Assembly (NCBI RefSeq): GCF_036669915.1
Contig: NC_089319.1
Location: 18,721,885-18,785,884 of the forward strand
DNA length: 64,000 bases
From: Pocillopora verrucosa
Lineage: Eukaryota; Cnidaria; Anthozoa; Scleractinia; Pocilloporidae
Direction of reading: 5' to 3'
Under the pieces are notes generated by a model. It saw only the letters and a program-made list of their open reading frames with translations. It was not told where the DNA came from and searched no databases. Positions 1 to 62,625 of the stretch are shown here, in pieces. Positions within the stretch are counted from its first letter, which is position 1; each line of letters opens with the position of its first letter. Both the position numbers and the translations under genes were made by a program.

Positions 1-42
1 CCTAACCTAAAATTCTCTGAGATGAAAGTAAGGCATAACTGA
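1..42 (+). CDS. 3' end of a FReD gene (copy 0, partial)
   Basis: Only the last 13 codons and the stop of a fibrinogen-domain exon are inside the window. The frame ends in SEMKVRHN followed by TGA, the same ending as the five complete FReD genes downstream. The few visible codons (PNLKFSEM) match copy 3 (stop at 43062) and differ from copies 1, 2, 4 and 5. The rest of the gene lies to the left of the window. Confidence 0.85.
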   Translation, partial: PNLKFSEMKVRHN

Positions 43-8126: not shown

Positions 8127-11100
8127 ATGCAGCGACTCACTTTACTCTTCCATTCTCAGTTTCTCCTGTGCTGGAAGTTTGCAACTCCCTCAGCTCAAAG
8201 CCTAACAGGAACGTCGAACCCTGGTCGGTTGTCTTGTTTAAAAAGATCTGAAAATCCTGAAAAAGGTAAAGCTTGACTCAAACACGTAATATGCGCACCG
8301 TAAATAATGGCAAAAATAAATCTTAGACTACACAAAGAATAAAAAACTTGACGCAGATCCAATGTGAACCGAGAAGATTTGTCGAGACTATTTAATTAGT
8401 GGGGTTGAAGGTAATGTAATCGTAATGCGCTGACTTTAATTCATCAGTTACGACACAAGAAATTCAGTTTCGTATTTTAGCGAAAAACACCTAAATACCG
8501 AGTCGCGAGTCGAAGCACTTCAACTAACAAAGCATTCAGTTATTTTTCTCTTAACGTGAGTTAGTTTCAAGCTGTCAAATTCGGCTTTTCGTGTCGTGCA
8601 TTCCTCTCTGGTATCGCTTCGCTTGTAGCTGTAATGGAATAAAGTTAACTTCGCTCGAAAATCTCAGAGATGAACTCTTTTCACTTGTATGGTCACTTTT
8701 AGTAATGATGGAATTTTATTCACCTTCGAACGGATCTACTTCAAGTTAACGTGTTCCAGACACGATCAAACTAGAGTAAACCATGGCCGATGAGGATGAA
8801 TAGGAAGACCGGCGACCAAATTCGCTGTGATCGGAGTATAAAATCGTCTGATGAGTGGGAATCTTAATTATAGGGGTTTCCAGAATTAAGAACCAACAAC
8901 TTTGAAAGCTTGTGTATTCCCTTGTTGTGTATCGAAGAGTTGCGAACAGCCTAAGATAGAACTGGCCGAAATTTACGAAACTGAGACTGAGTAATTTTCG
9001 AAACATGAGAAAAATAATTCCATGTAAAAATATGTTAATATTTAAGCAATACTTTTCACTTCCTGTCGGTTTTCAGACGCAAAACTCACACGGGATGTTA
9101 CTGAGAACACAAGGAAAAGTTGTAAATCACGACCCGAGGGTGCATGATTACCAACGTTCCAAGTGCACTGACGCCTAAAAAAATGATAGAAAGTGCGCCT
9201 TCTAGCTTTTAAAAATGGAGCCCTGAGTTTACTAGTACAATGAACGATAGGCTTTCGATCAATCAAAGTGTTCCTAATATCTTATAAATTTTTACGATTT
9301 TCATCAAGTCCTCAATGTCCTCTTGATTTCTCTCTTTTTGTTTCCTGTAAGATATATCTTGAAGAAAACTCTCCTATATGACGATATGTTTGCATCTGTT
9401 TTAGGCTACACTCTGGTTAATCACGTGATTGCTACGCCCACTGTCACGTGCCCGATAGACTGTACGTGGGAATGCCTACGGGATGCACGCTGTCGATCGT
9501 TTAATTATGCAAACTCAGGGAAAACATGTGAATTAAGTGACCAATCAAAAGCGACAGCCCCAAATGACTTTGTTTTAAGAAAAGGCATCACTTACTACGA
9601 GCCAACGACACAGATGGTGAGTCATAGAAATTTACAGATCAGTTAGAAACTTAATCATCAGTGCTAAACCTACCAAGCGCAGGAACCTTTGAGGTCTTCG
9701 GTTTTTCAAATTCCATCTTCTGAGCAAGGTGGTGTCAAAATCATATCGAGAGGTCAAATAAATGCCTTTATCTCAGAGAACGGTATGGCTGCCTAAAACT
9801 GAACATTTACACAGAGCAGCGTTTGTAAGACCTTCATTTATAGCCCGAAACACAGTAAGTTGAAATGTGGTGGAACTCAGTGGGCGGGAGTACAATTCAG
9901 GCAGCAATCGGGCGAATGATTTGAAATTACGAGCAGGAACGAAAACTTTAATTTAAACATGCGCACATGAATTGATTCATATAGCAAATGTTCAGGTCGG
10001 AAGTCTAAACGTTGTTAGAAATATCGAATGCTTAATGCACTTCAGATATTTTTTTCCATTTTGACTGGCTAACTTTTGCTAAGTGCTTACAATTGGACAG
10101 GTGAAATCAAACAATTAGGACATGGAACAGCCAATCAAGCCGCAAATAAGAGCTGCTTTACTGATGAAAGAACCACTCATTCTCGAGAATTTTGTTATTG
10201 ACACAATTGATGTCATAAAATGCCTATTTTCTAGAAGGAAATCCTGGGCAAATATAATTTGCTCAAATAGAGACAAAATCGTTGCTCGATATACAAAACT
10301 TTGAAAATATCAAACTTCTATACTCATTTTGAAAGAGAAACGTTAGCTCTAAGAACGAGAATATATTTCAACCAAAGAAGGTATTGTCATGGTAAGTTTC
10401 GCCTCATAAAAGGATGAAAGTGCGTTTAACTATTCTTCCCATTTTCACCCAGGGAGGAAATAGACCTGTTTGCACCTCGGCTTTATGTCAAAATGGTGGA
10501 ACATGTGTTGACGCGTGTTGGAATCGCCGGATGTTCACGTGTGAATGTCGACAGGATTATAAAGGAGTGTACTGCGAAGAGCACAGCGGAGGTGGGTAAC
10601 TCGTGACTAAATAGAAGAGAAGAACACTTAAATTTGCGATAATTTTCTTTCAGCAACAAGTCTCATATTATGTTTCCTTTGTTCCCCGTACAGTGAGAAG
10701 CTGTCAGCAGCTGAAAACCCTAGGAGCGAATCAGAATGGCATTTATAAAATCAACCCAGATGGTCAAGGGGTCATAAACGTGTACTGTGACCAAACCACA
10801 GATGGAGGTGGGTGGACTGTGGTTCAGAGACGTTCCCGTCCATACAAGCAAAGCTTTAGACGAACGTGGGTAGAGTATCGAGTAGGCTTTGGCGACTTGT
10901 CCAAAGAATTCTGGATTGGAAACGACAACTTGCACCGAATAGCCTCTTCTGACAGCATTCTTCGAATAGATCTGCACCGAACCAACGGCCAAAAGGGATA
11001 TGCCAAATATGGTGGGTTTCGGGTAGCTGACGAAACAGAAAAGTATCGATGCGACATGACTTCGTACGAAGGAAACATCGGAAATGGGTTTTATGGTAAT

Positions 11101-11310
11101 ACAAATCCTAAATTGAATATCCGAGGGATGAAATTCGGCACACCAGACCAAGATAATGACAACTTCCTTGGAAAGTGTTTTCCTGATGGTGCATGGTGGG
11201 CAAACCAATGTGGCGAGGTTAATCTCAATTCAAGGGATGGTCCAAACTGGCGTCCTTGGGATACTCACCCTAACCTAAATCTCTCTGAGATGAAAGTAAG
11301 GCATAACTGA
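8127..11310 (+). CDS. secreted PAN-EGF-fibrinogen domain protein, FReD gene 1
   Basis: Four coding exons: 8127-8265, 9405-9616, 10453-10591 and 10694-11310 (368 codons plus stop). Exon phases 1, 0 and 1 match across all junctions, with consensus GTAAAG, GTGAGT and GTGGGT donors. Exon 1 encodes a signal peptide (MQRLTLLFHSQFLLCW, cleavage probably after PSAQS). The ATG at 8127 is chosen because the in-frame ATG at 8094 is absent from copies 3 and 4. Exon 2 is a PAN/apple domain (CPIDCTWECLRDARCRSF). Exon 3 is an EGF-like domain (CQNGGTC, CEC, GVYC) with one extra Cys at VDAC. Exon 4 is a whole FReD: paired Cys at RSC/VYC and KCF/NQC, a Ca-site-like DQDND, GAWW, and the terminal SEMK motif. An additional Cys (KYRC) has no canonical partner. 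Likely a secreted lectin-like or adhesive recognition protein; the ligand is unknown. Confidence 0.9.
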
Positions 11311-12955: not shown

Positions 12956-13369
12956 TTATTTGAGAGTAATAGTGCAGGCCTCACTGCACTCACCCTGTCG
13001 TCCATTAACATCAGTAGCACGTACCAAGAAGTGGTTTCCGGGTGATAACTGAGTCAGAGTGCAAGCCATAGGAAGCGTCAACGTCTTGACGACTCCAATC
13101 TTCTTCCACTGGTGAAGGTTCTCCGTTGTGCCGCCGTCCTGAAGCGCAAAAAGTTGATAGTTCATTATAGGCGCGTGTCTCTCATCAAGAGCCATATACC
13201 ACGACAAAACGATACCGCTTGGAGCAACCGTTATGGAGACATTAGGTTTCGGAGGGGGTTCTTTAGTCTCTTTTGCTGGGGATACAGGGGAATGTTGCCC
13301 TGAACCTGGCGGTAGACCCTGTTGGGGTCTTATAGATACTTGTGAATAGCTTTGCAAGGCGAATAGCAA
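12956..13369 (-). CDS. ATF7IP-like C-terminal FN3 fragment, the only open copy
   Basis: The minus-strand frame is 137 codons and ends at TAA (12956-12958). It matches the C-terminal fibronectin-III domain of ATF7IP/MCAF1: [54 protein letters not shown]. In ATF7IP this domain binds partner proteins such as MBD1 in heterochromatin complexes. Unlike copies 1, 3, 4 and 5 it has no internal stop, but NKYHF has shortened to NHF through a 6-nt loss. The frame's first Met is unlikely to be a true start: the sequence is an internal or penultimate exon, and a GTGAGT donor lies after NGRQG. No other ATF7IP exon is in the window, so it is a partial gene, possibly still decaying. Confidence 0.6.
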   Translation of the reverse strand: MLFALQSYSQVSIRPQQGLPPGSGQHSPVSPAKETKEPPPKPNVSITVAPSGIVLSWYMALDERHAPIMNYQLFALQDGGTTENLHQWKKIGVVKTLTLPMACTLTQLSPGNHFLVRATDVNGRQGECSEACTITLK

Positions 13370-21676: not shown

Positions 21677-24600
21677 ATGCAGCGACTCACTTTACTCTTC
21701 CATTCTCAGTTTCTCTTGTGCTGGAAGTTTGCAACTCCCTCAGCTCAAAGTCTAACAGGAACGTCGAACCCTGCTGGTCGGTTACCTTGTTTAAGAAGAT
21801 ATGAACATCCTGAAAGAGGTAAAGCTTGACTTAAACACTTAATTTGCGCACTGAAAATAATGGCAAAAATAGATCTTAGACTACACAAATGTAGAAAACT
21901 TGACGCAGAACCAATGTGAACCGAGAAGATTTGTTGAGGTTATTTAACTGAATAGTGGGGTTGAAGGTAATGTAATCGTGATGCGCTGACTTTAATTCAT
22001 CAGTTACAACACAAACAAATTTTCGTATTTTAGCGAAAAACACTTTAATACCGAGTCGCGAGTCGAAGCACTTCAACTAGAAAAGCATTCAGTTATCTTT
22101 CTCTTAACGTGAGCTCGTTTCAAGCTGTCAAATTCGGCTTTTCGTGTCGTGCATTCCTCTCTGACATCGCTTTGCTTGTAGCTGTAATGGAATAAAGTTA
22201 ATGGTAAGGATGGAATTTTATTCACCTTCAAATGGAACTACTTCAAGTTAACGTGTTTCAGACACGATCAAACTTAAGTAAACCATGGCCAACAAGGACG
22301 ATGAGGATGAAAAGGAAGACCGGTGATCGAATTCGCTGTGATCAGAACATAAAATCGTCTGATGAGTGGGAATCTTAATTATAGGGGTTTACAGAATTAA
22401 GAACCAACAACTTTGAAGCCTTGTGTATTCGCTTGATGTGTATCGAAGAGTTGCGAACAGCCTAAGATAGAACTGGCCGGAAATTTAAGAAAACCGAGAC
22501 TGAGTAATTTTCAAAACATGTCAAAAACGATTCCATGTAAAAATATGTTAACATCTAAGCAATATTTTCACTTCCTGTCTGTTTTCAGACGCAAAAACTC
22601 ACACGGGATGTTAGGAGAACACAGGGAAAAGTTGTAAATCACGACCCGAAGGTGCATGATTACCAACGTTCTAAGTGCACCAACGCCTGAAAAATGATAG
22701 AAAGTGCCCTTTCTATTTTTTAAAAATGGAGCCCTGAGTTTACTAGTACAATGAACGATAGGCTTTCGACAATCAAAGTGTTCCTAGTATCTTATAAATT
22801 TTTACGATTTTCATCAAGTCGTCAATATCCTCTTGATTTCTCTCTTTTTATTTCGTGTAAGATACATCTTGAAGAAAACTCTCATATATGACGATATGTT
22901 TGCATCTGTTCCAGGCTACACTCTGGTTAATCACGTGATTGCTACGTACACTGTCACGTGCCCGATAGACTGTACGTGGGAATGCCTACGGGATGCACGC
23001 TGTCGATCGTTTAAGTATGCAAACTCAGGGAAAACATGTGAATTAAGTGACCAATCAAAATCGACAGCCCCAAATGACTTTGTTTTAAGAAAAGGCGTCA
23101 CTTACTACGAGCCAACGACACAGATGGTGAGTCATAGAAATTTACAGATCAGTTAGAAACTTAATCATCACTGCTCAACCTGCCAAGCGCAAGAACCTTT
23201 GAGGTCTTCGGTTTTTCAAATTCCATCTTCTGAGCAAGGTGGTGTCAAAATCATATCGAGAGGTCAAATAAATGCCTTTATCTCAGAGAACGGTATGGCT
23301 GCCTAAAACTGAACATTTACACAGAGCAGCGTTTGTAAGACCTTCATTTCTAGCCCGAAAACACAGTAAGTTGAAATGTAGTAGGACTCAGTGGGTGGTA
23401 GTACAATTCATGCAGCAATCGGACGAATGATTTGAAATCACGAGCAGGAATGAAAACTTTCATTTACACATGCGCACATGAATTGATTCGTATAGCAAAA
23501 GTTCAAGTCGTAAGTCTAAATATTGTTAGAAATATCCAATGCTCAAAGCACCTCAGAAATTTCTTCCATTTTGACTGGCTAACATTTGCTAAGTGCTTAT
23601 GATTGAACAGGTGAAATCAAACAATTTGGACATGAAACAGCCAATCAAGCCGCAAATAAGAGCTGTTTTATTGATAAAAGAACCACTCATACTCGAGAAT
23701 TTTGTTATTGACACAATTTCACATGTTACTGACACATTTTCTCTCAGGGAGGAAATGGACCTGGTTGCGCCTCGGCTTCATGTCAAAATGGTGGAACATG
23801 TGTTGACGAGTGTTGGAATCCCCGGATGTTCACGTGTGAATGTCGACAGGATTATAAAGGAGTGTATTGCGAAAAACATAGCGGAGGTGGGTAACTCGTG
23901 ACTAAATAGAAGAGAACACCTAACTTTGCGATAATTTCCTTTAAGCAACAAGTGTCATACTATGTTTCTTTTTTTATGTACAGTGAGAAGCTGCCAGCAG
24001 CTGAAAACCCTTGGAGCGAATCAGAATGGCATTTATAAAATCAACCCAGATGGTCAAGGGGTCATAAATGTGTACTGTGACCAAACCACAGATGGAGGTA
24101 GGTGGACTGTGGTTCAGAGACGTTCCCGTCCATACGAGCAAAGCTTTAGACGAACGTGGGTAGAGTATCGAGTAGGCTTTGGTGACTTGTCCAAAGAATT
24201 CTGGTTTGGAAACGACAACTTGCACCGAATAGCCTCTTCTGACAGCATTCTTCGAATAGAGCTGCACCGAACCAACGGCCAAAAGGGATATGCCAAATAT
24301 GGTGGGTTTCGGGTAGCTAACGAAACAGAAAAGTATCGATGCGACATGACTTCGTACGAAGGAAACATCGGAAATGGGTTTTATGGAAATACAGATCCTA
24401 AATTGAACATCCGAGGGATGAAATTCGGCACACCAGACCAAGATAATGACAACCACCCTGGCAAGTGTTTTCCTAATGGTGCATGGTGGGCAAACCAATG
24501 TGGCGAAGTTAATCTCAATGGAAAGTATGGTCCGGACTGGGGTCCTTGGGTTTCTTACCCTGACCTAAATTTCTCTGAGATGAAAGTAAGGCATAACTGA
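21677..24600 (+). CDS. secreted PAN-EGF-fibrinogen domain protein, FReD gene 2
   Basis: Coding exons 21677-21818, 22915-23126, 23748-23886 and 23984-24600 (369 codons plus stop), with phases 1, 0 and 1 as in copy 1. Exon 1 has one additional codon (NPAGR). The PAN exon is nearly identical to copy 1. The EGF exon is more divergent at its start (GPGCASASC versus RPVCTSALC) and has VDEC. Intron 2 is about 215 bp shorter, with a different 3' end (ACACATTTTCTCTCAG). The FReD keeps Cys pairs, DQDND and GAWWANQC; it has GGRW where others have GGGW, FWFG, and a variable patch GKYGPDWGPWVSYPDLNF. No disabling mutation is visible. Gene 2 lies directly after the Harbinger-like insertion, which is about 320 bp upstream of its start codon and may lie in its promoter region. 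Confidence 0.9.
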
Positions 24601-33300: not shown

Positions 33301-35760
33301 TTCTAGAACCTAACACATAAACGAACTGTGGATAAGAATTATTTTCACTCGAAAATTATTCATTTTCAAGTCGACACACCAGCGACTAATTGAGGTCATA
33401 GCTTCCTTATCACGACTTTATCTTGATCGTGAACTAATTTAAAAGCCGAGCGAATGTAACTTGAAAACAATGCAGCGACTCACTTTACTCTTCCATTCTC
33501 AGTTTCTCCTGTGCTGGAAGTTTACAACTCCCTCAGCTCAAAGTCTAACAGGAACGTCGAACCCTGGTCAGTTGTCTTGTTTAAGAAGATCTGAACATCC
33601 TGAAAAAGGTAAAGCTTGACTCAAACACTTAATATGGGCACCGTAAATAATGGCAAAAATAAATCTTAGACTACACAAAGAATAAAAAACTTGACGCAGA
33701 ACCAATGTGAACTGAGAAGATTTGTTGAGACTATTTGAATAGTGGGGTTGAAGGTAATGTGATCGTGATGCGCTGACTTTAATTCATCAGTTACGACACA
33801 AGCAAATTCAGTTTCGTATTTTAGCCAAAAAAAACCTAAATACCGAGTCGCGAGTCGAAGCACTTCAACTAGCAAAGCATTCAGTTATTTTTCTCTTGAC
33901 GTGAGTTAGTTTCAAGCTGTCAAATTCGGCTTTTCGTGTCGTGCATTCCTCTCTGGTATCGCTTCGCTTGTAGCTGTAATGGAATAAAGTTAACTTCGCT
34001 CGAAAATCTCAGAGATGAACTCTTTTCACTTGTATGGTCACTTTTAGTAATGATGGAATTTTATTCACCTTCGAACGGAACTACTTCAAGTTAACGTGTT
34101 CCAGACACGATCAAACTAGAGTAAACCATGGCCAACAAGGTCGATGAGGATGAATAGGAAGACCGGTGACCAAATTCGCTGTGATCGGAGTATAAAATCG
34201 TCTGATGAGTGGGAATCTTAATTATAGGGGTTTCCAGAATTAAGAATCAACAACTTTGAAAGCTTGTGTATTCCCTTTTTGTGTATCGAAGAGTTGCGAA
34301 CAGCCTAAGATAGAACTGGCCGGAAATTTACGAAACTGAGACTGAGTAATTTTCGAAACATGAGAAAAATAATTCCATGTAAAAATATGTTAATATCTAA
34401 GCAATACTTTTCACTTCCTGTCGATTTTCAGACGCAAAAACTCAAACGTTCCAAGTGCACTGACGCCTAAAAAAATGATAGAAAGTGCGTCTTCTAGCTT
34501 TTAAAAATGGAGCCCTGAGTTTACTAGTACAATGACCGAAAGGCTTTCGATAAATCAAAGTGTTCCCAATATCTTATAAATTTTTACGACTTTCATCAAG
34601 TCGTCAATGTCCTCTTGATTTCTCTCTTTTTGTTTCCTGTAAGATATATCTTGAAGAAAACTCTCATATATGACGATATGTTTGCATCTGTTTTAGGCTA
34701 CACTCTGGTTAATCACGTGATTGCTACGCACACTGTCACGTGCCCGATAGACTGTACGTGGGAATGCCTACGGGATGCACGCTGTCGATCGTTTAATTAT
34801 GCAAACTCAGGGAAAACATGTGAATTAAGTGACCAATCAAAAGCGACAGCCCCAAATGACTTTGTTTTAAGAAAAGGCATCACTTACTACGAGCCAACGA
34901 CACAGATGGTGAGTCATAGAAATTTACAGATCAGTTAGAAACTTAATCATCAGTGCTCAACCTACCAAGCGCAGGAACCTTTGAGGTCTTCGGTTTTTCA
35001 AATTCCATCTTCTGAGCAAGGTGGTGTCAAAATCATATCGAGAGGTCAAATAAATGCCTTTATCTCAGAGAACGGTATGGCTGCCTAAAACTGAACATTT
35101 ACACATAGCAGCGTTTGTAAGACCTTCATTTCTAGCCCGAAACACAGTAAGTTGAAATGTGGTGGAACTCAGTGGGCGGGAGTACAATTCAGGCAGCAAT
35201 CGGGCGAATGATTTGAAATTACGAGCAGGAACGAAAACTTTAATTTAAACATGCGCACATGAATTGATTCATATAGCAAAAGTTCAAGTCGGAAGTCTAA
35301 ACGTTGTTAGAAATATCGAATGCTTAATGCACTTCAGATATTTTTCCATTTTGACTGGCTAACATTTGCTAAGTGCTTATAATTGGACGGGTGAAATCAA
35401 ACAATTTGGACATGGAACAGCCAATCAAGCCGCAAATAAGAGCTGCTTTACTGATGAAAGAACCACTCATTCTCGAGAATTTTGTTATTGACACAATTGA
35501 TGTCATAAAATGCCTATTTTCTAGAAGGAAATCCTGGGTAAATATAATTTGCTCAAATAGAGACAAAATCGTTGCTCGATATACAAAACTTTGAAAATAT
35601 CAAACTTCTATACTCATTTTGAAAGAGAAACGTTAGTTCTAAGAACAAGAATATATTTCAACCTAAGAAGGTATTGTCATGGTAAGTTTCGCCTAATAAA
35701 AGGATGAAAGTACGTTTAACCATTCTTCCCATTTTCACCCAGGGAGGAAATAGACCTGTT

Positions 35761-35900
35761 TGTGTAGAGTGCGTGACATGTTTTGTTGAGTTCATGAACC
35801 ACAAAGGGTGTCGGGAAAAAAAAGAGAAAAGCATGTGCTCGGAGTTTTCGAATAAATACAACCTTGTGTTTAATTAATCTGGTGATTTGAGTGTGTAACA
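35761..35900 (+). repeat. 5' LTR
   Basis: 140 bp, starting TGTGTAGAGTGCG and ending GAGTGTGTAACA. It contains AATAAATAC near 35851, a possible poly(A) signal. LTRs this short are at the low end for Gypsy elements. It is identical to 42084-42223. Confidence 0.95.
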
Positions 35901-35901
35901 T

Positions 35902-35923
35902 TGGCGACCCCGCCAGGACTCGA
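35902..35923 (+). promoter_or_regulatory. primer-binding site
   Basis: Starts TGGCGACC one base after the LTR. The reverse complement of the 22 bases has the layout of a tRNA 3' end: the end of a T-loop, a T-stem CCTGG, a 7-nt acceptor strand, discriminator G and CCA. A discriminator G is typical of serine tRNA, so a tRNA-Ser-type primer is likely; the exact tRNA is not established. Confidence 0.75.
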
Positions 35924-36124
35924 CCGAAGAGGCTTATCATCGACGAAGAACTGCCTTGGGTTGTGAAGGACAAAGTAATTGGCACGCTTGGTTGATTCGT
36001 CGAGCGCGAGTTGGTTGTGGTCGATTGCTGTCGACGGCGGACTGATCTTGACGTAAAGTGTCGCATTTCTTTTGTGAACGGCTGATTGCACTATTGGTGA
36101 GTACGAAAGATTATTTTTGGAAGT

Positions 36125-37369
36125 ATGATGGATACCGAGAGTCTGCAGATCGAAATTCAGGCCGCGTTGTGTTCCTTGAGCGAGGAAAGGCTTAAAGAAG
36201 TTTGTAGTGGGCTGAACATTACTGTACCGCCTGAGAGCAAGGGAAGGTTGGTTTTTATCCGAGCTCTAAATAAATACCTCGAAACGGAAGAATTAGATAA
36301 TGAGAAGCTCAAAGTGTTGTCGTCGTCTCTAAGTATGCAGGGAAAATTTGTACCGGAACAGAAAACGGAACCGCCGAAAGCTTCTGAAAATAATAAAGCG
36401 ACCGTCAAAATAGAGCAAAATCCCGTGGTGTCAATTTCAAAATTCAAACGCGACTTCAAGATTTCGGGCCAGATTGGCGACGCGTCGCAGAAGGATCGTT
36501 TGAGTTTTTCCTCGCTAGTGCATCAAATTGAGAATGGTTTAAAGAACGACTATACAGAGGATGAAATTAAAGAGGCTGTGATAAAAGCGATAAATCCGGC
36601 GTTAAGCCTAAGAAGTTATTTGGAGGGTAAGGTAGATTTAACACTGGCCAAATTGAGGAGAATTATGCGTTCTCATTATCAGGAGAGAACAGCAACCGAA
36701 CTATATCATCAGTTGAGCTCAACTGTCCAACAGCCAAAGGAAAAACCTCAAGAATTCTTGATCCGCCTTCTCGATTTGAAACAGAAGATCTTGTTTGCAT
36801 CTCAAGAAACTGACTCGGACCTGAAATATGATCCTACCTTAGTACATGGCATGTTTGTCCATAGCTTTTCCCTTGGCCTGCAAAGTGAGAATATCAAGAT
36901 CGAAATGAAGCCTTACTTGGAAAAGAAATTTATAAGCGATGAAGAACTATTCGAGAAATTAAATGTGTGTTTCAGTGACGAACTGGAGCGATCACAGAAA
37001 TTCGGTTCACAGCTAACCCCCAAGGTAAATGCTGTTCAAAAGGGAGGGGACAAGCAGGAGACAAAGAATAATGGGGTGGAGGAAGGTCTCATGAAAGAAC
37101 TAAGGGAGCTCAAGGCAGAAGTGGCCGCAGTCAAAGAGAGAGTTCGGGCCCCACTCCGGGCTCAAACCCCCCTCACACAACAGCCTATGAGACAACCCCC
37201 ACTGTGTAGGACCTGCCAACAAAGTGGGAATGGATGGCCGTGCAACCATTGCTTCAGGTGTGGGGCGAGTGGCCATTATGTACGCGAGTGTAATGCCCAA
37301 TTCAGCCGACGCTCTCCGGCAGAATCTCAGGGAAACGGCCAGAGGTCACGCCCATGGGACAGGGTGTGA
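36125..37369 (+). CDS. retrotransposon Gag
   Basis: 414 codons from ATG 36125 (an ATG directly preceding it, ATGATGG, is in frame). The N-terminus has a SAP-like helical stretch ([15 protein letters not shown]). The central part is alpha-helical capsid-like sequence ([12 protein letters not shown]). A short coiled-coil ([17 protein letters not shown]) precedes a proline/glutamine-rich linker. A CCHC zinc knuckle, [14 protein letters not shown] (residues 376-389), binds nucleic acid. The stop at 37367-37369 lies inside the overlap with pol. The heptamer G GGA AAC at 37330-37336 is in the gag frame and positioned for -1 frameshifting. Confidence 0.9.
37330..37336 (+). promoter_or_regulatory. 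candidate -1 ribosomal frameshift heptamer G GGA AAC
   Basis: The heptamer obeys the X XXY YYZ rule, and its GGA and AAC triplets are exact gag codons. It lies 31 nt before the gag stop. The pol frame is the -1 frame and is open from 37294, just after a TAA at 37291-37293, so slippage here leads straight into pol. A downstream stimulatory structure could not be assessed by eye. Confidence 0.75.
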
Positions 37370-40300
37370 CCAGGCAAGAAAATCAGTCCCGTTACGTGCA
37401 GTGTGGAAAACAAAGCACAGACCATGTACCACTTAACCGCTGCGGAGCCTGTAAGATCAATAGATATTATTCAAAAGAATGTCAAGTAAAATACAGAACT
37501 GTGCATAAACCAGTTTGCATGGCTATACAGGAACTTGAGAAACAGAAAGCAGCCGGAGATGATGGCGATGATTTGAACACGACGTTTCCCTGCCACCTGA
37601 CGCCAAGGCAGCAGCTCGGACTGACGAAAATCGTGGGACGGAGGTGCGTGGTAAAATGCCTAATTCAAGGAAAGGAAGTGGAGGCATTATGGGATACAGG
37701 TTCCCAGGTTTGTGTTGTGTCAAGGAAGTGGCAACAAACTCACTTACCGCTGGAGGTGTTAAGAAATGTTGAAGAGTTGTTGGGAGCAGGAGAAGAGTTG
37801 AATTTGGAAGCGATGAATGGGACAAACATTCCATTTGACGGTTGGATTGAGGTCGGGTTTAAGTTGGCTGGAGATGATACAACTGCTCATGAGCTGACAG
37901 TTCCAGTACTGGTGGGACAAAAGGAACAAGAGTACCCAATCATTGGCTTCAATGTTATAGAAGAAGTCCTCGCTCAACATGGTGGAAACCACCAAGCGGC
38001 AAGTAACATCATTCAGCAGTCATTCCCTTCAATTCATCATACTCGCGTAGGTACCCTGATCAATCTGATCCAGTCAAGAACACAGGATACCGGTACTGCA
38101 GCTGTTAAAGTCGGAAAGAGAGATGTTATGCTGCCAAAAGGAGAGGCAACGACAGTTAAGTGTCAAACTCACCTCGGACCAGTTCCAGAGGGGATGCCAG
38201 TAATATTTGAGCCCAAGGAAGACAGCGAGCTCCCAGACGGACTGGAATTGGGCGAGGAACTTACTAAAATAACCCCGGGAACCTCTAGTCACGTGGCCGT
38301 CGTGGTCCAAAACAATACAGACAGAAACATCTTGTTAAAGCGCAGAACAGAATTGGGCCGGATACACCTGGTAAAGTCAGTTCTACCAATTCCAAATACT
38401 CCCGACTCGTACTCTCGAGGAGACGAGAATTTTTACCCTGAAGCTACCTTGCATCCTGGTCAGGAACAAGATGGATGGGAGCCACCAGTTGACTTGAGTC
38501 AGCTAGAAGACAATGAACAATTGATCGTCCACGAAATGCTACGGCAAGAAGCTGGTGCCTTTGCAAGAAACGACGATGAGGTTGGCTGCGTGGAGAACTT
38601 GGTGCTTGATATCCAGTTAAAGGACAATGAGCCAGTACAGAAGAACTATATCTCCATCCCCAAGCCACTCTATGGGGAAGTGAAAGAGTACTTAGAAGAC
38701 TTGATTAATCGAAATTGGATCTGCAAGTCCCGTTCGGCTTACTCCTCACCCATGGTCTGTGTTCGCAAAAAGGATGGAAGTCTGCGACTTTGTATTGATT
38801 ATCGAGAATTGAACAAGAAAACATATCCAGAACGACAGCCGATTCCCCGTATACAGGATATCTTAAATGGCCTAGGCGGCAACAAATGGTTTACAGTTCT
38901 GGACCAAGGGAAGGCCTACCACCAAGGCTTTATGACAGAAGAAAGCCGCCCCCTGACTGCATTCGTGACCCCCTGGGGATTGTATCAATGGAATAGAATA
39001 CCGTTTGGGCTAATGAATGCACCGGCGGCATTCCAAAGGTGCATGAATGAATGTCTAGATGGCTTACGTGACAACATCTGTATTCCCTACCTGGATGATG
39101 TCTTGGTGTATAGTAAGACCTTTGAGCAACACGTTCAGGATGTCCAACAAGTCCTGCGTCGACTGCAGGAACATGGGATAAAGTTAAAGCCATCAAAGTG
39201 CAAGTTCTTCCAACGACAAGTTAGATATTTGGGGCGGGTTGTTTCCGGCGATGGCTACTCTCTAGACCCAGAGGACACGGCTGCCGTACACAACTTGGCG
39301 AAACAGAAACCAGCAACAGTGGGTGATGTGCGTAAACTGCTAGGGTTCCTGAGTTACTACAGGCAATACATCCAGGATTTCTCACGCATAGCTAAGCCCC
39401 TGTACGATCTAATGGCTGGCCCTGATCTATTGGCTAATAATCATAAGGTAACATGGACAGAGGAACATCAGAAGCGGCTTGACATGCTGGTCGACCGACT
39501 GACTTCTCCTCCAGTGATGGCATTTCCCGACTTTACGAAGCCATTTGTACTTCACACAGACGCCTCGCAAGAGGGACTTGGAGCTGTATTGTATCAAGAA
39601 CAGGACGGGAAGCTCAGAGTTCTAGGTTATGCCTCTAGGACACTAACTCCAGCAGAGAAAAATTACCACATGCACGCGGGAAAATTGGAGTTCCTTGCCC
39701 TCAAATGGGCAGTAACTGAGAAGTTCCGTGATTACTTGTACTACTCCACCTTCTTCACTGTTTACACCGACAACAATCCACTAACTTACATTCTGTCGTC
39801 AGCTAAGTTGTCTGCAGTAGGGCACCGGTGGGTGGCAGAACTGGCAGATTTTAATTTTAACATCAAGTATCGGCCTGGCAAATCTAACATTGACGCGGAT
39901 GTACTATCCCGCCTACCGCTAGATTTCAGTGCATACATGGAAACCTGTATTGCAGAAATGGAAAAGGACGCAATTTGTGCAACAAGTCAAGCAGTGATCC
40001 ATCAGGAAACAGACGCCACACCCTGGGTGGCAGCAGTTTCAGCAAGAGTTGGCATTGCTCACGCAGAACCGGGCGTCACAGATTTGGTTTTTCGCCAACT
40101 TACGTTAGAAGAAATATTAAGGGCTCAACGGGAAGACCCCGACATCTCACGAATCCTGGCCTACAAGAAACGGGGATATCCCCCATCAGGAGGAGAGCGG
40201 AAAAATGAGACTCGTACAACATCTTGCTACTTGAGAGCATGGAATAAACTCCATATATCAGCGGACGGGATCCTGTGGCGCCAAATTAAGAGTCGATTGC

Positions 40301-41919
40301 AGCTAGTATTACCTACAAAGTTTAAACAGTTGGTTTACCAAGAACTTCACATTGAAATGGGTCATCTGGGTGCAGATCGAGTGGTGGACTTAGCGAGATC
40401 TAGGTTCTATTGGCCTTACATGCAAGAGGAAATCGAGTATTTCATCGCCAACAAGTGTCACTGCATCCAGCAAAAGAAGCCCCAAATCTCCCCTAGAGCA
40501 CCAATGGAGAGCATTACGACGACTGCCCCTTTTGAGATGGTGTCTATAGACTTTCTTCATTTGGAGAAAAGCCAACGGGGATTTGAATATATTTTGCTGA
40601 TAGTAGATCACTTCACAAGGTTTGCACAGGCCTACCCAACCCGAAACAAGACAGCACGAACGGTGGCTGAAAAGATTTACAATGACTTTGTACCACGATT
40701 CGGATTCCCAGCCCGTATACACAGTGATCAAGGAGGAGAATTTGAGAACAATCTCTTCCATCAACTACATAAGTTGTCTGGCGTTTCCAAGTCTCGCACC
40801 AGCCCCTACCACCCTCAAGGGAATGGGCAAGTGGAGAGGATGAACCGCACGCTATTGTCTATGCTGCGAACACTCCCAGATTTGAAGAAACGAAAGTGGG
40901 ATGAATCACTCAACAAGATGATCCACGCGTACAATTGCACTAAGCATGAGGCGACAGGATACGCTCCGTATTACTTGTTGTTTGGAAGAACACCCCGCCT
41001 GCCCATCGACCTGATTTTCAATTTGAATCAAGAGAGTGCAGAGGGAGATTATAACACTTACGTCCAAAACTGGCAGCATGATATGAAGGAGGCATACCGG
41101 ATAGCTCAACAGAATGCAAAGAAGACTGCCGAGCGCGGCAAGCAATATTACAACAAGAGAGTCTCAGGTGGCGTTCTTCAGCCAGGCGATCGGGTGCTAG
41201 TTAGAAACTTAACAGAGCGCGGTGGACCCGGAAAATTACGATCCCATTGGGAGTGCGCTATCCACGTTGTGGTTGAACGAATGGGGGCTCAAAGCCCAGT
41301 CTACAAAGTTAAGCCCGAGAGTGGAGGTGGCCGCGCAAGAGTGCTTCACCGGAATTTACTACTGCCTTGTGACGCTTTGGAAGCAGATGCCCCAAACCTG
41401 GGATTTGGTACGCGACCCCCAAAAACAGCAGTAGAGAAACGACCTTTGTCTGTTTCGGGAAATGACCTACAGAATTCGGGGAAAGATGATGATGATTTCG
41501 GTAGTGTGGACCTTGTAGAGGAAATACCTACTGAAGTAAGAACTTCAAACTCAGTGTCTCCAGGACGCGATTTGCCTTCAGAGTCAATTGAGGATTCTGC
41601 GACTACTGAGGGCACCAATGGGCCATCCAGCGAAATACAACTTGCAAATGAAGGAAGTGCTGACAATGACGGATCAGGGGGAGAGGACATTGCTGAGCAG
41701 GACATGTGGACTCGGCCGCAGCGCCAAAGGAGACCGCCGCAGATCTTAACTTACAACTCCCTGGGAAATCCACAGTACCAGTCGGCTGAGCCAGTATTCA
41801 GCAGTTCACGCGTTAACGCCATTCAAACTCCAGCTATCACAGCTATTCATCCGGGAATACCCCTGTATTTCTGGGTGTGGCCATGCTGTTTCCAACCTGT
41901 CTACTACCCGAGGGCTTGA
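37354..41919 (+). CDS. retrotransposon Pol (protease, RT, RNase H, integrase)
   Basis: 1521 codons if counted from the first ATG, but probably translated by -1 frameshift from gag. The N-terminus has a MYND-like finger (C17, C30, C33, C43, H51, C55). Protease: DTGS at D114. Reverse transcriptase: [18 protein letters not shown] and the YLDD box at 579-582. RNase H: HTDAS with D736, and TDNNPL. Integrase: HHCC-like finger (H999, H1004, a CHC cluster), catalytic D1066, D1125 and E1161 with exact D-x35-E spacing, and a GPY/F-like module. About 150 acidic, Ser-rich residues follow. The domain order PR-RT-RH-IN is that of Ty3/Gypsy. No internal stop or frameshift was seen. Confidence 0.95.
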
Positions 41920-42067
41920 GAGGAGCCTCTTATAAGACCCAAACATTAAAAAAAAAAAAGAAAAGCAAAAGCACGCAAGGTGCTGAAGGAGACAACGTCA
42001 AACAACAATTACAGTAGCTGCAGAGAACTCTGATAAATAGTTTTGTAATATTTAGAAGAACACTTTC

Positions 42068-42083
42068 ATTTTCGGCGGGGAAG
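42068..42083 (+). promoter_or_regulatory. polypurine tract
   Basis: The purine-rich run CGGCGGGGAAG directly abuts the 3' LTR, the expected place for the plus-strand primer of reverse transcription. Confidence 0.7.
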
Positions 42084-42223
42084 TGTGTAGAGTGCGTGAC
42101 ATGTTTTGTTGAGTTCATGAACCACAAAGGGTGTCGGGAAAAAAAAGAGAAAAGCATGTGCTCGGAGTTTTCGAATAAATACAACCTTGTGTTTAATTAA
42201 TCTGGTGATTTGAGTGTGTAACA
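42084..42223 (+). repeat. 3' LTR
   Basis: 140 bp, matching the 5' LTR at every base I compared, including the run of eight A. The host EGF exon resumes at 42224 with TTTGCACCTCGGC. Confidence 0.95.
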
Positions 42224-43062
42224 TTTGCACCTCGGCTTTATGTCAAAATGGTGGAACATGTGTTGACGCGTGTTGGAATCCTCGGATGTTCACGTGTGAA
42301 TGTCGACAGGATTATAAAGGAGTGTATTGCGAAAAGCACAGCGGAGGTGGGTAACTCGTGACTAAATAGAAGAGAACACTTAAATTTGCGATAATTTCCT
42401 TTCAGCAACAAGTCTCATATTATGTTTCCTTTGTTCCACGTACAGTGAGAAGCTGTCAGCAGCTGAAAACCCTGGGAGCGAATCAGAATGGCATTTATAA
42501 AATCAACCCAGATGGTCAAGGGGTCATAAACGTGTACTGTGACCAAACCACAGATGGAGGCGGGTGGACTGTGGTTCAAAGACGTTCCCGTCCATACAAG
42601 CAAAGCTTTAGACGAATGTGGGTAGAGTATCGAGTAGGCTTTGGCGACTTGTCCAAAGAATTCTGGCTTGGAAACGACAACTTGCACCGAATCGCCTCTT
42701 CAGACAGCATTCTTCGAATAGATCTGCACCAAACCAACGGCCAAAAGGGATATGCCAAATATGGTGGGTTTCGGGTAGCTGACGAAACAGAAAAGTATCG
42801 ATGCGACATGAGTTCGTACGATGGAAACATCGGAAATGGATTTTATGGTAATACAAATCCTAAATTTAACATTCGAGGGATGAAATTCGGCACACCAGAC
42901 CAAGATAATGACAACCACCCTGGCAAGTGTTTTCCTAGTGGTCCATGGTGGGCAAACCAATGTGGCAAGGTTAATCTCAATTCAAAGAATGGTCCGTACT
43001 GGGATCCCTGGACTTCTCAGCCTAACCTAAAATTCTCTGAGATGAAAGTAAGGCATAACTGA

Positions 43063-44658: not shown

Positions 44659-44855
44659 TTAACCCTATAACTCTCAAGATCTGATTATTAATTTCCTCCT
44701 CTACCTGCTTAACATTTCCTTGTAAATTAGTTGCGAGAATTTGGTGCTAGATCAAGATAACAACTTCTACCTTCTCATTACCTGTTTGCTGGATAGTGCA
44801 CAGATATTGTAAGGAGAAGTTACATGTGAATCACTTCTGGGAGTTTGAGGGTTAA
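44659..44855 (-). repeat. MITE-like element, type 2 (unit 4)
   Basis: TTTAACCCTATAACTC to GAGTTTGAGGGTTAA, the counterpart of 1637-1829 in the near-identical block. It keeps 4 nt (CCTG) that copy 1 has lost. Confidence 0.6.
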
Positions 44856-48553: not shown

Positions 48554-51473
48554 ATGCAGCGATTCACTTTACTCTTCCATTCTCAGTTTCTCCTGTGCTG
48601 GAAGTTTACAACTCCCTCAGCTCAAAGTCTAACAGGAACGTCGAACCCTGGTCGGTTGTCTTGTTTAAGAAGATCTGAACACCCTGAAAAAGGTAAAGCT
48701 TGACTTAAACACTTAATTTGCGCACTGCAAATAATGGCAAAAATAGATCTTAGACTACACAAAGATAGAAAACTTGACGCAGAACCAATGTGAACCGAGA
48801 AGATTTGTTGAGACTATTTAAATAGTGGGGTTGAAGGTAACGTAATCGTGGTGCGCTGACTTTAATTCATCAGTTACAACACAAGCAAATTTCGTATTTT
48901 AGCGAAAAACACTTTAATACCGAGTCGCGAGTCGAAGCACTTCAACTAGCAAATCATTCAGTTATCTTTCTCTTAACGTGAGCTCGTTTCAAGCTATCAA
49001 ATTCGGCTTTTCGTGTCGTGCATTCCTCCCTGACATCGCTTTGCTTGAAGCTGTAATGGAATAAAGTTAATGGTAAGGATGGAATTTTATTCACCTTGAA
49101 ATGGAATTACTTCAAGTTAACGTGTTTCAGACACGATCAAACTAAAGTAAACGATGGTCAACAAGGACGATGAGGATGAAAAGGAAGACCGGTGATCGAA
49201 TACGCTGTGATCGGAGCATAAAATCGTCTGATGAGTGGGAATCTTAATTGCAGGGGTTTCCAGAATTAAGAACCAACAACTTTGAAGGCTTGTGTATTTG
49301 CTTGCTGTGTATCGAAGAGTTGCGAACAGCCTAAGATAGAACTGGCCGGAAATTTACGAAAACTGAGTAATTTTCGAAACATGAGAAAAATAATTCCATG
49401 TAAAAATATGTTAATATCTAATTTCTCTCTTTTTATTTCGTGTAAGATACATCTTGAAGAAAACTCTCATATATGACGATATGTTTGCATCTGTTCTAGG
49501 CTACACTCTGGTTAATCACGTGATTGCTACGCACACTGTCACGTGCCCGATAGACTGTACGTGGGAATGCCTACTGGATGCACGCTGTCGATCGTTTAAT
49601 TATGCAAGCTCAGGGAAAACATGTGAATTAAGTGACCAATCAAAAGTGACAGCCCCAAATGACTTTGTTTTAAGAAAAGGCGTCACTTACTACGAGCCAA
49701 CGACACAGATGGTGAGTCATAGAAATTTACAGATCAGGTAGAAACTTAATCATCACTACTCAAACTGCCAAGCGCAAGAACCTTTGAAGTCTTCGGTTTT
49801 TCAAATTCCATCTTCTGAGCAAGGTGGTGTCAAAGTCATATCGAGAGGTCAAATAAATGCCTTTATCTCAGAGAACGGTATGGCTGCCTAAAACTGAACA
49901 TGCACACAGAGCAGCGTTTGTAAGACCTTCATTTCTAGCCCGAAAACACAGTAAGTTGAAATGTAGTAGGGCAGGAGTACATTTCAGGCAGCAATCGGGA
50001 GAATGATTTGAAATTACGAGTAGGAATGAAAACTTTAAATTACACATGCGCAATTGATTCATATAGCAAAAGTTCAGGTCGTAAGTCAAAATATTGTTAC
50101 AAAACATCCAATGCTCAATGCACTTCAGAAATTTTTTCCATTTTGACTGGCTAACATTTGCTAACATTTTTATAATTGAACAGTTGACATCAAACAATTC
50201 GGACATGAAACAGCCAATCAAGCCGCAAATAAGAGCTGTTTTATTGATAAGAGAACCACTCATACTCGAGCATTTTGTTATTGACATAATTGATGTCATA
50301 AAATGCCTATTTTCTAAAAGGAAATCCCGGGTAAATATAATTGCTAAAATAGAGACAAAATTGTTGGTCGATATACACCTGAAACGAAATTTCATTTGAA
50401 GGAAAACAGGAGAGGGAAAGATGAATTCCTACTCAAAACTTTGGAAATATCAAACTTCTATACTCATCTTGAATTAAGGGTACAGACCACCATCGAAGAG
50501 AAACGTTAGCTCTAAGAACGAGAATGTATTTCAACCTAATGAGGTATTGTCATGGTAAGTTTCACCTTATAAAAGGATGAAAGTACGTTTAACCATTCTT
50601 CCCATTTTCTCCCAGGGAGGAAATAGACCTGTTTGCGTCTCAGCTTTATGTCAAAATGGTGGAACATGTGTTGACGCGTGTTGGAATCCCCGGATGTTCA
50701 CGTGTGAATGTCGACAGGATTATAAAGGAGTGTATTGCGAAAAGCACAGCGGAGGTGGGTAACTCGTTACTAAATAGAAGAGAGGAACACTTAAATTTGC
50801 GATAATTTCCTTTCAGCAACAAGTCTCATATTATTTTTCTTTTGTTCCATGTATAGTGAGAGGCTGTCAGCAGCTGAAAACCCTGGAACCGAATCAGAAT
50901 GGTATTTATAGAATCAACCCAGATGGTCAAGGGGTCATAAACGTGTACTGTGACCAAACCACAGATGGAGGTGGGTGGACTGTGGTTCAAAGACGTTCCC
51001 GTCCATACAAGCAAAGCTTTAGACGAACGTGGGTAGAGTATCGAGTAGGCTTTGGCGACTTGTCCAAAGAATTCTGGCTTGGAAACGACAACTTGCACCG
51101 AATCGCCTCTTCCGACAGCATTCTTCGAATAGATCTGCACCGAACCAACAGCAAAAAGGGATATGCCAAATATGGTGGGTTTCGGGTAGCTGACGAAACA
51201 GAAAAGTATCGATGCGACATGACTTCGTACGAAGGAAACATCGGAAATGGGTTTTATGGTAATACAGATCCTTATTTGAACATCCGAGGGATGAAATTCG
51301 GCACACCAGACCAAGACAATGACAACCTCCTTGGAAAGTGTTTTCCTGATGGTGCATGGTGGGCAAACCAATGTGGCGAGGTTAATCTCAATGGAAAGTA
51401 TGGTCCGGACTGGGGTCCTTGGGCTTCTCACCCTGATCTAAATTTCTCTGAGATGAAAGTAAGGCATAACTGA
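48554..51473 (+). CDS. secreted PAN-EGF-fibrinogen domain protein, FReD gene 4
   Basis: Coding exons 48554-48692, 49500-49711, 50616-50754 and 50857-51473 (368 codons plus stop), phases 1, 0 and 1. An upstream in-frame ATG like that at 8094 is followed here by TAA, which supports the ATG at 48554 as the start. Intron 1 is about 330 bp shorter than in copy 1 (a deletion near 49421). The PAN domain has ECLLDARC and SKVTAP. The EGF domain starts PVCVSALC. The FReD begins RGCQQLKTLEPNQ, has NSKKGYAKY and DPYLNIRG, and carries the patch GKYGPDWGPWASHPDLNF, closest to gene 2. Cys pairs, DQDND and GAWW are conserved. No lesions seen. Confidence 0.9.
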
Positions 51474-59495: not shown

Positions 59496-62400
59496 ATGCA
59501 GCGACTCACTTTACTCTTCCATTCTCAGTTTCTCTTGTGCTGGAAGTTTACAACTCCCTCAGCTCAAAGTCTATCAGGAACGTCAAACCCTGGGCGGTTG
59601 TCTTGTTTAAGAAGATATGAACATCCTGAAAAAGGTAAAGCTTGACTTAAACACTTAATTTGCGCACTGCAAATAATGGTAAAAATAGATCTTGGACAAC
59701 ACAAAGATAGAAAACTTGACGTAGAACCAATGTGAACCGAGAAGATTTGTTGAGACTATTTAACTGAATAGCGGGGTTGAAGGTAATGTAATCGTGGTGC
59801 GCTGACTTTAATTCATCAGTTACAACACAAGCAAATTTTCGTATTTTAGCGAAAAACACTTTAATACCGAGTCGCGAGTCGAAGCAAAGCATTCAGTTGT
59901 CTTTCTCTTAACGTGAGCTCGTTTCAAGCTGTAAAATTCAGCTTTTTGTGTCGTGCATTCCTCCCTGACATCGCTTTGCTTGTAGCTGTGATGGATTAAA
60001 GTTAATGGTAATGATGGAATTTTATTCACCTTCAAATGGAACTACTTCAAGATAACGTGTTGCAGACACGATCAAACTAGAGTAAACCATGGCCAACAAG
60101 GACGATGAGGATGAAAAGGAAGACCGGTGATCAAATTCACTTTGATAGAGCATAAAATCGTCTGATGAGTGGGAATCTTAATTATAGGGGTTTCCAGAAT
60201 TAAGAACCAACAACTTCGAAGGCTTGTGTATTTTCTTGTTGCGTATCGAAGAGTTGCGAACAGCCTAAGATAGAACTGGCCGGAAATTTACGAAACTGAG
60301 ACTGAGTAATTTTCGAAACATGAGAAAAATAATTCCATGTAAAAATATGTTAATATCTAAGCAATACTTTTCACTTCTTGTCGGTTTTCAGACGCAAAAA
60401 CTCACACAGGATGTTACTGAGAACACAAGGAAAAGTTGTAAATCACGACCCGAGGGTGCATGATTACCAACGTTCCAAGTGCACTGACGCCTAAAAAAAC
60501 GATAGAAAGTGCACCTTCTCGCTTTTAAAAATGGACACCCCGAGTTTACTTGTACAATGAACGATAGGCTTTCGATCAATCAAAGTGTTCCTAATATCTT
60601 ATAAATTTTTTTGATTTTCATCAAGTCGTCAATGTTCTCTTGATTTCTCTCTTTTTGTTTTATGTAAGATATATCTTGAAGAAAACTCTCATATATGACC
60701 ATATGTTTGCATCTGTTGTAGGCTACACTCTGGTTAATCACGTGATTGCTACGCACACTGTCACGTGCCCGATAGACTGTACGTGGGAATGCCTACGGGA
60801 TGCACGCTGTCGATCGTTTAATTATGCAAACTCAGGGAAAACATGTGAATTAAGTGACCAATCAAAAGCGACAGCCCCAAATGACTTTGTTTTAAGAAAA
60901 GGCGTCACTTACTACGGGCCAACGACACAGATGGTGAGTCATAGAAATTTACAGATCAGTTAGAAACTTAATCATCAGTGCTAAACCTACCAAGCGCAGG
61001 AACCTTTGAGGTCTTCGGTTTTTCAAATTCCATCTTCTGAGCAAGGTGGTGTCAAAATCATATCGAGAGGTCAAATAAATGCCTTTATCTCAGAGAACAG
61101 TATGGCTGTCTAAAACTGAACATGTACACAGAGCAGCGTTTGAAAGACCTTCATTTCTAGCCCGAAACACAGTAAATTGAAATGTGGTGGAACTCAGTGG
61201 GCGGGAGTACAATTCAGGCAGCAATCGGGGGAATGATTTGAGATTACAAGCAGGAATGAAAACTTTAATTTAAACATGCGCACATGAATCGATTCATATA
61301 GCAAAAGTTCAAGTAGGAAGTCTAAACGTTGTTAGAAATATCGAATGCTTAATGCACTTCAGATATTTTTCCATTTTGACTGGCTAACATTTGCTAAGTG
61401 CTTATAATTGGACAGGTGAAATCAAACAATTTGGACATGGAACAGCCAATCAAGCCGCAAATAAGAGCTGCTTTACTGATAAAAGAACCACTCATTCTCG
61501 AGAATTTTGTTATTGACATAATTGATGTCATAAAATGCCTATTTTCTAGAAGGAAATCCTGAGTAAATATAATTTGCTCAAATAGAGACAAAATTGTTGC
61601 TCGATATACAAAACTTTGAAAATATCAAACTTCTATACTCATTTTGAAAGAGAAACGTTAGCTCTAAGAACGAGAATATATTTCAACCTAGGAAGGTATT
61701 GTCATGGTAAGTTTTGCCTCATAAAAGGATGAAAGTACGTTTAACCATTCTTTCCATTTTCACCCAGGGAGGAAATAGACCTGTTTGCACCTCGGCTTTA
61801 TGTCAAAATGGTGGAACATGTGTTGACGCGTGTTCGAATCCCTGGATGTTCACGTGTGAATGTCGACAGGATTATAAAGGAGTGTATTGCGAAAACCACA
61901 GCGGAGGTGGGTAACTCGTGACTAAATAGAAGAGAAGAACACTTAAATTTGCGATAATTTCCTTTCAGCAACAAGTCTCATATTATGTTTCTTTTGTTCC
62001 ATGTACAGTGAGAAGCTGCCAGCAGCTGAAAACCCTTGGAGCGAATCAGAATGGCATTTATGAAATCAACCCAGATGGTCAAGGGGTCATAAACGTGTAC
62101 TGTGACCAAACCACAGATGGAGGTGGGTGGACTGTGGTTCAGAGACGTTCCCGTCCATACGAGCAAAGCTTTAGACGAACGTGGGTAGAGTATCGAGTAG
62201 GCTTTGGCGACTTGTCCAAAGAATTCTGGCTTGGAAACGACAACTTGCACCGAATCGCCTCTTCTGACAGCATTCTTCGAATAGATCTGCACCGAACCAA
62301 CGGCACAAAGGGATATGCCAAATATCATGGGTTTCGGGTAGCTGACGAAACAGAAAAGTATCGATGCGACATGACTTCGTACGAAGGAAACATCGGAAAT

Positions 62401-62625
62401 GGGTTTTATGGAAATACAGATCCTAAATTGAACATCCGAGGGATGAAATTCGGCACACCAGACCAAGATAATGACAACTTCCTTGAAAAGTGTTTTCCTC
62501 ATGGTGCATGGTGGGCAAACCAATGTGGCGAGGTTAATCTCAATGCAAGGAATGGTCCATTCTGGCTTCCTTGGGCTACTAACCCTGACCTAAATCTCTC
62601 TGAGATGAAAGTAAGGCATAACTGA
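59496..62625 (+). CDS. secreted PAN-EGF-fibrinogen domain protein, FReD gene 5
   Basis: Coding exons 59496-59634, 60722-60933, 61768-61906 and 62009-62625 (368 codons plus stop), phases 1, 0 and 1. The signal peptide is as in the other copies. The PAN domain ends GVTYYGPTTQM. The EGF domain has VDACSNPWMF. The FReD has YEINPDGQ, GTKGYAKYHGF and NFLEKCFPHGAWW, and a private patch ARNGPFWLPWATNPDLNL. Framework Cys and DQDND are conserved, as is the odd KYRC cysteine. Intact on reading. Introns follow genes 1 and 3 more closely than genes 2 and 4. Confidence 0.9.

Follow-up and report, generated by a model that had tools for sequence, protein, structure and literature searches.

Introduction

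Among the closest described systems are lectins and immune proteins that carry a fibrinogen-related domain (FReD), with which we compare an array of PAN-EGF-FReD genes in the coral Pocillopora verrucosa. The array comprises 23 copies across 255 kb, and the window, i.e. the whole stretch of 64,000 nucleotides that was analysed (contig NC_089319.1, positions 18,721,885 to 18,785,884 of the forward strand), sits within it and holds five of them. How animals without antibodies distinguish many microbes and algal partners is an open question that is acute for corals.

With tachylectin 5A (TL5A), the ficolins and FIBCD1, the window proteins share the FReD fold, the counterparts of two aspartates and the loops aligned with the S1 ligand site, but unlike them they lack several residues of the acetyl pocket. 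The fibrinogen-related proteins (FREPs) of the snail Biomphalaria glabrata form a large FReD family tied to immunity, as the array family may be, and gene conversion together with point mutation has been reported for FREP3-type diversity (PMC7588048). In the snail, immunoglobulin superfamily (IgSF) domains stand before a fibrinogen domain that is itself described as relatively conserved, whereas in the coral array PAN and EGF domains precede a FReD whose ligand loops hold most of the diversity. Snail-type FREPs have one or two such IgSF domains, and the cnidarian CniFL proteins, which have a fibrinogen domain and a variable copy number, are defined by collagen, Ig and fibrinogen domains (PMC5094078). 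Copy 1 of the window belongs to neither type: its Pfam matches at E up to 0.01 are PAN_1, EGF/EGF_2 and Fibrinogen_C only, with no collagen, Ig or IgSF domain among them.

Tachylectin-2 of the coral Oculina is also a coral lectin under positive selection, but it is the homologue of a different horseshoe-crab lectin, and 244 alleles were studied there in place of a tandem array (PMC2880987). Noel et al. 2023 (PMC10236652) described immune-related tandem duplications, as here, in the genomes of Pocillopora and Porites; the word 'Fibrinogen' is absent from the available main text of that paper. Positively selected sites have been reported in the Anopheles FReD gene FBN8 (PMC2811201). Precedents thus exist for diversified FReDs, in snails, and for a coral lectin under positive selection. 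Focal selection on the FReD ligand loops of coral genes, combined in one array with a lost acetyl pocket, was described by none of the matches listed from the open-licence PMC literature, and no paper on selection at coral FReD loops was among them.

Amino-acid changes are concentrated in two loops of the FReD

An earlier note, made from the letters of the window alone, had described an 18-codon patch of focused amino-acid diversification in the FReD exons of the five window copies, with about 11 amino-acid-variable codons and about two that change silently. All five coordinate pairs proved to be correct and in frame, and the exact counts are 11/18 and 2. The patch is also the best 18-codon window of the exon (scan permutation p 0.0014), so that clustering of the changes by chance is unlikely; it is not the only variable segment, though, because a second and smaller one, in which 5 of the 11 codons 156-166 are amino-acid variable, had gone unreported. 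The two segments lie on the plus strand as follows:

11230..11283, +, hypervariable patch (FReD codons 179-196), copy 1
24520..24573, +, hypervariable patch, copy 2
42982..43035, +, hypervariable patch, copy 3
51393..51446, +, hypervariable patch, copy 4
62545..62598, +, hypervariable patch, copy 5
11161..11193, +, second variable loop (codons 156-166), copy 1
24451..24483, +, second variable loop, copy 2
42913..42945, +, second variable loop, copy 3
51324..51356, +, second variable loop, copy 4
62476..62508, +, second variable loop, copy 5

Outside the patch, only 25 of the 186 codons are amino-acid variable and 14 are silent only (Fisher p 1.6e-5 versus the patch). Nucleotide divergence among the five copies stands at a mean of 20% in the patch. 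Introns and 3′ flank average about 6%, FReD codons 1-150 are at 3.7% and the PAN exon at 1.8%, and the 27 bases that directly follow the patch do not differ at all; the residue is the same in all five copies at codons 182, 183, 185, 187, 188, 192 and 194. The earlier description of fixed codons between the variable ones, of far fewer changes in the codons before the patch and of similar introns and flanks is accurate.

The same pattern was found across the array, which was delimited by a genome search with the FReD exon. Its 40 matches include 23 that span all or nearly all of the exon; these sit on the plus strand of contig C8 (18,549,864-18,804,511), the contig that holds the window, and the other 17 are short (75-107 bases) and lie outside the array. 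One copy (L025, G000:C8:18789500-18794500) has two internal stop codons in its FReD exon and was excluded from counts and tests; the remaining 22 in-frame copies comprise 20 different exon and 16 different patch sequences. At 9 of the 204 sites the 20 distinct proteins show at least four residues, and all nine fall within the patch or codons 157-166; Gly182, Pro183, Trp185, Pro187 and Trp188 are invariant in the 22 copies, two of these codons changing silently. Median divergence is 22% in the patch (20 copies) and 7.5% in the intron 2 region (19 copies). Compared with intron 3, the patch is roughly threefold more divergent (20.6% versus 6.8%), and the 27 bases that follow it show a mean difference of 1.9% in 20 copies. 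As far as the codon models described below can show, two loops (157-166 and 179-196) carry an excess of amino-acid over silent change, on a conserved background formed by the Gly-Pro-x-Trp-x-Pro-Trp frame and the remainder of the domain. Five database protein clusters (P0001-P0005) give the same best window, with 11/18 variable patch sites versus 24/186 elsewhere, a replication that is only partly independent since P0004 belongs to the array and P0003 shares its patch.

Codon models detect an excess of replacement over silent change in the loops

When the 16 distinct patches were fitted with their own branch lengths, omega (dN/dS) was 2.83 on the patch tree and 2.87 on the exon tree, an omega of 1 was rejected (p 0.0039 and 0.0020, respectively), and model M2a was preferred over M1a (p 6e-4 and 2.8e-5). 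Among the 20 exons, the two loops jointly had an omega of 2.72 (p 2.3e-4), compared with 0.49 for the body of 175 codons. This combination of ligand loops above 1 on a scaffold below 1 is that of a diversified germline recognition family, and it was found under single-tree models here and in the genes on contig C3 described below. Neither a patch dN/dS at or below 1 nor intron and silent divergence equal to that of the patch was observed, and the diversifying selection that the earlier note had proposed is supported once the array copies are added, although the five window copies alone are insufficient to establish it. The evidence from all array copies largely settles that amino-acid change exceeds silent change in the loops.

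Loops and bodies are decoupled between copies

Distances between the two halves of the exon body correlate at 0.60 (20 copies), versus 0.12 for body and patch (Mantel p 0.12); patch distances between copies thus hardly follow exon-body distances, and the correlation between codons 156-166 and the patch is 0.35 (22 copies). The array copies L013 and L016 differ at 4/465 body bases but at 14/54 patch bases, their loops being unlike on nearly the same body, and L021 compared with copy 4 shows the reverse, a like patch on an unlike body. Informative sites of the five window copies also switch partner along the gene. Such decoupled segments are what conversion or crossing-over would be expected to leave, the loops seemingly escaping homogenisation, and contrast with a published description of gene conversion in corals as very rare (PMC10236652).

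The variable loops align with the S1 ligand site

The AlphaFold2 model of the window FReD is confident throughout (pLDDT 96.4) and matches the listed ficolin, TL5A and FIBCD1 chains with a query TM of 0.87-0.92; structural modelling, which had been proposed as a check, returned the FReD fold, and the position of the loops at S1 comes from alignment. Both the patch and codons 157-166 align with the S1 site. FIBCD1 Tyr405, Tyr431 and Ala432 have no counterpart in the window proteins, His415 aligns with Gly173, and Trp443 falls at the variable codons 190-191. The residue set of the S1 acetyl pocket (Tyr405, His415, Tyr431, Ala432 and Trp443 in FIBCD1 numbering, with Tyr in place of Trp443 in TL5A, L- and M-ficolin) is thus absent from them. 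Counterparts of Asp393 and Asp395, which we take to bind calcium, are kept.

The FIBCD1 pocket is formed by Tyr405, His415, Tyr431 and Trp443 with Ala432 at its base, and the acetyl group is held by the main-chain nitrogens of Cys414 and His415 and by Tyr431 (PMC3908420); Asn413, Arg412 and His396 extend the site (PMC10825690). That the patch lines the ligand pocket, as had been claimed, is thus upheld by the alignment, but the acetyl pocket of TL5A, the ficolins and FIBCD1 is largely deleted, and the ligand therefore need not be an acetylated sugar. By sequence comparison, we read the patch as the remnant of a FIBCD1-type pocket loop in which Pro-x-Trp-x-x-Trp is fixed, and both loops are probably surface-exposed. 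A text pattern applied to 296 fetched proteins sorted 34 into a class with this short loop and 93 into a longer-loop class, with 169 unclassified.

Canonical FReD genes on contig C3 show the same focus

At the exon level, the genome holds at least 187 FReD matches, many of them clustered in tandem (contigs C1, C3, C5, C6 and C14). In the C3 genes, the FReD is spread over two exons and the canonical loop is kept. From 40 further loci fetched (20 on C3, 20 on C1), 19 readable ligand-half exons (15 C3, 4 C1) were recovered by a text pattern that favours canonical exons; the C1 loci were dropped, and the C3 set analysed consisted of 14 equal-length ligand halves, 12 at 25.98-26.21 Mb and 2 at 29.98-30.16 Mb. 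These have at least 84 replacement and at least 26 silent changes in 69 codons, compared with 41 and 44 in the 95 codons of 12 scaffold halves (Fisher p 4.5e-5). For the 13 distinct ligand halves the overall omega is 1.32, with 30% of sites at omega 5 (M1a/M2a p 2.5e-13), versus an omega of 0.24 and no significant selected class (p 0.48) in the scaffold half.

The C3 sequences, one residue longer than FIBCD1 before the segment's first cysteine, were mapped onto it with an adjustment by hand. By this map, the 18 sites with a posterior above 0.9 include the counterparts of Tyr405, Arg412, Asn413, Tyr431 and Trp443, i.e. 5/9 contact positions, while those of Cys414, His415, Ala432 and His396 are outside the list; Cys414 and His415 bind via the main chain, and thus their side chains need not follow selection. 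The C3 canonical FReD genes therefore show the same ligand-site focus as the array. The variable lectin system suspected in the earlier note can be retained in the form of germline variation between gene copies, in the array and in the C3 genes. No relatives of the window genes were found in the viral contigs searched.

Interpretation and alternative explanations

From the sequences, we consider it probable that the array is a germline lectin-like repertoire under diversifying selection, with loops and bodies exchanged between copies. Tandem duplication would supply the copies, selection would favour new residues at the binding face, and gene conversion or unequal crossing-over may reassort loops among bodies. 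The loops would then form a binding surface, such that each copy presents a different face on the same PAN-EGF stalk, its constant part, and binds a different ligand; judged from the family, the ligands are most likely microbial or algal surface glycans. Special mutation machinery is unnecessary. A targeted mutator was considered and set aside: in our own reading, some variable patch columns lack A in all five copies, and Pfam, applied to nine frames of the window, gave a single reverse transcriptase match, in the retrotransposon inside copy 3.

A wider reading, which we hold tentatively and regard as slightly less likely to be right than wrong, is that of a genome-wide inherited FReD recognition repertoire whose ligand-facing loops are the parts chiefly renewed by selection and by exchange between copies. 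One branch would have lost the acetyl pocket of its ancestors and formed a new variable binding surface around the Trp-Pro frame, and the repertoire would work much as variable immune receptors do, only in the germline. The sequence itself points to candidate contact residues, a few codons on a constant scaffold in the array and in the unlike C3 genes, which fall partly at positions that touch sugars in human FIBCD1; specificity is therefore testable by expressing a few copies and comparing their glycan binding. The loops could also serve as markers in studies of coral resistance or symbiont choice.

Several points weigh against selection of this kind or against its restriction to the loops. 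Two five-copy results, a patch omega of 4.2-6.0 on all 15 topologies in a two-partition model and M1a/M2a p values of 4e-6 to 4e-5 (three topologies), take their silent rate from the exon as a whole. Once the patch was allowed a silent rate of its own, a model with omega 1 and a local rate of 3.5-3.9 lost only a little fit (likelihood ratio (LR) 3.3-3.8 on three topologies, p 0.05-0.07); adding a constrained class gave LR 4.4-6.3 (four topologies, p 0.01-0.04), and the patch alone an omega of 2.5-2.9 (p 0.06-0.10, three best topologies). Proof of selection from the five window copies alone was thus rejected, since freeing the silent rate removed most of the support, and the remaining 18 array copies were sought for this reason. 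The codon models are our own code, unchecked against PAML, with kappa fixed at 2 in the free-silent-rate five-copy, 16-patch, 20-exon and C3 tests, and they assume a single tree, so that recombination, which is evident in the array, can inflate M2a. Codons 156-166 alone are borderline (omega 2.58, p 0.051; 20 exons), the patch has somewhat more silent change than the body (tree length 2.15 versus 1.38), and minimum-change counts are less decisive (41 replacement to 9 silent in the patch versus 78:43 in the other 186 codons, p 0.017).

Beyond the loops, the 3′ flank has a mean divergence of 9-16% in 20 copies, mostly because the flanks of L013 and L019 are unlike the rest, with medians of 4.6-6.2% up to 520 bases and 11% beyond. 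The PAN exons of the five copies have 7 replacement-variable codons and no silent ones between introns that differ by 6%, and the EGF exons of four copies have 9 replacement versus 3 silent codons; because both vary mostly by replacement, selection may extend beyond the loops, and selection or conversion may act on the PAN exons too. Other coral proteins, finally, give no clear second case, the patch excess being non-significant after scanning: the patch has 13/18 versus 93/186 variable sites in seven proteins at 60-75% identity (p 0.059, scan p 0.95) and 10/18 versus 52/186 in P0012-P0014 (p 0.018, scan p 0.59).

Among the alternatives, the one that survives best, though we regard it as unlikely, is a non-immune surface, in which the loops bind a fast-evolving protein partner and confer specificity in reproduction, allorecognition or matrix contacts. 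Some FReD relatives do bind proteins, judging by fold matches whose titles name tenascin-PTPRZ and angiopoietin; against this, the selected C3 sites include counterparts of FIBCD1 glycan contacts, and coral tachylectin-2 is reported to be under positive selection, possibly from coral-associated microorganisms (PMC2880987).

Clearly less probable is a local mutation hotspot or an old segment, by which every kind of site in the patch would have changed about four times as fast, without any net selection for new amino acids. In five copies, omega 1 with the raised local rate comes within 1.6-1.9 log-likelihood units of the best model, and the raised silent change in the patch agrees with it. The 16 patches nevertheless reject omega 1 on their own branch lengths, no amino-acid change occurs among 22 copies at codons 182, 183, 185, 187 and 188, of which two vary silently, the bases directly after the patch hardly differ, and the unlike C3 genes have a similar focus.

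An assembly artefact, in which haplotypes were laid in tandem and the copies are partly alleles, seems improbable to us. L024 equals copy 3, and L011 equals copy 5, in codons 1-155, 156-166 and the patch, as alleles might; but 20/22 in-frame exons are distinct, with 16 patch types, the copy order along the contig is in our own reading not a repeated block, and alleles under such selection would still be diversified. Relaxed constraint, i.e. neutral drift of a loop that became dispensable once the acetyl pocket was gone, is the least plausible: canonical pocket residues are indeed lost and, among 23 copies, one has FReD stop codons and one a retroelement, but neutral drift should not exceed the silent rate as the loops do at omega 2.7, the Gly-Pro-Trp-Pro-Trp residues are invariant, and the patch diverged about three times as much as intron 3.

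Gene architecture and other features of the window

Each gene has four exons, for a likely signal peptide (recognised by eye), PAN, EGF and FReD, and each of the five window FReD exons is open over 204 codons. The window copies score 171-176 bits with the PF00147 Fibrinogen_C profile, versus a curated cut-off of 22. The best named match of the window gene is P. verrucosa fibrinogen-like protein A (P0004), whose FReD is exactly that of array copy L021 from the second residue onward. The encoded proteins are probably secreted and lectin-like. Copies 1, 2, 4 and 5 have open frames, as do 16 of the 18 array copies outside the window, in which the four exons are uninterrupted; the four-exon frame of L009 was left unassembled by the script.

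8127..8265, +, copy 1 exon 1, likely signal peptide (by eye) and linker
9405..9616, +, copy 1 exon 2, PAN domain
10453..10591, +, copy 1 exon 3, EGF domain
10694..11310, +, copy 1 exon 4, FReD
21677..24600, +, copy 2 gene, exons 21677-21818, 22915-23126, 23748-23886 and 23984-24600, open frame
33470..43062, +, copy 3 gene, exons 33470-33608 and 34697-34908, EGF exon split by a long terminal repeat (LTR) element, FReD 42446-43062 open
48554..51473, +, copy 4 gene, exons 48554-48692, 49500-49711, 50616-50754 and 50857-51473, open frame
59496..62625, +, copy 5 gene, exons 59496-59634, 60722-60933, 61768-61906 and 62009-62625, open frame
9405-9616, 22915-23126, 34697-34908, 49500-49711 and 60722-60933, PAN exons of the five copies
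1..42, +, end of the FReD exon of the preceding copy (L024, where the whole exon was read)
35761..42228, +, LTR retrotransposon within the copy 3 EGF exon, 145-base direct repeats at its ends 99% alike; the range may include flanking bases

The LTR element, presumably Ty3/gypsy-like, has reverse transcriptase and integrase matches, and its insertion probably disables copy 3 in this haplotype. Positions 1-2263 and 43021-45287 are 98.7% identical and the FReD protein of L024 equals that of copy 3; these two copies are recent duplicates. A minus-strand frame at 12956-13408 has a fibronectin-III type domain (PF16794, scored for this frame only), and similar frames recur in other units, e.g. at 977-1294 and 43999-44316. 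Segments at 22285-22323, 49154-49192 and 60089-60127 match the first 13 residues of the NCBI model P0004, unlike the signal-peptide exon, and could be an alternative first exon or reflect an error of the model.
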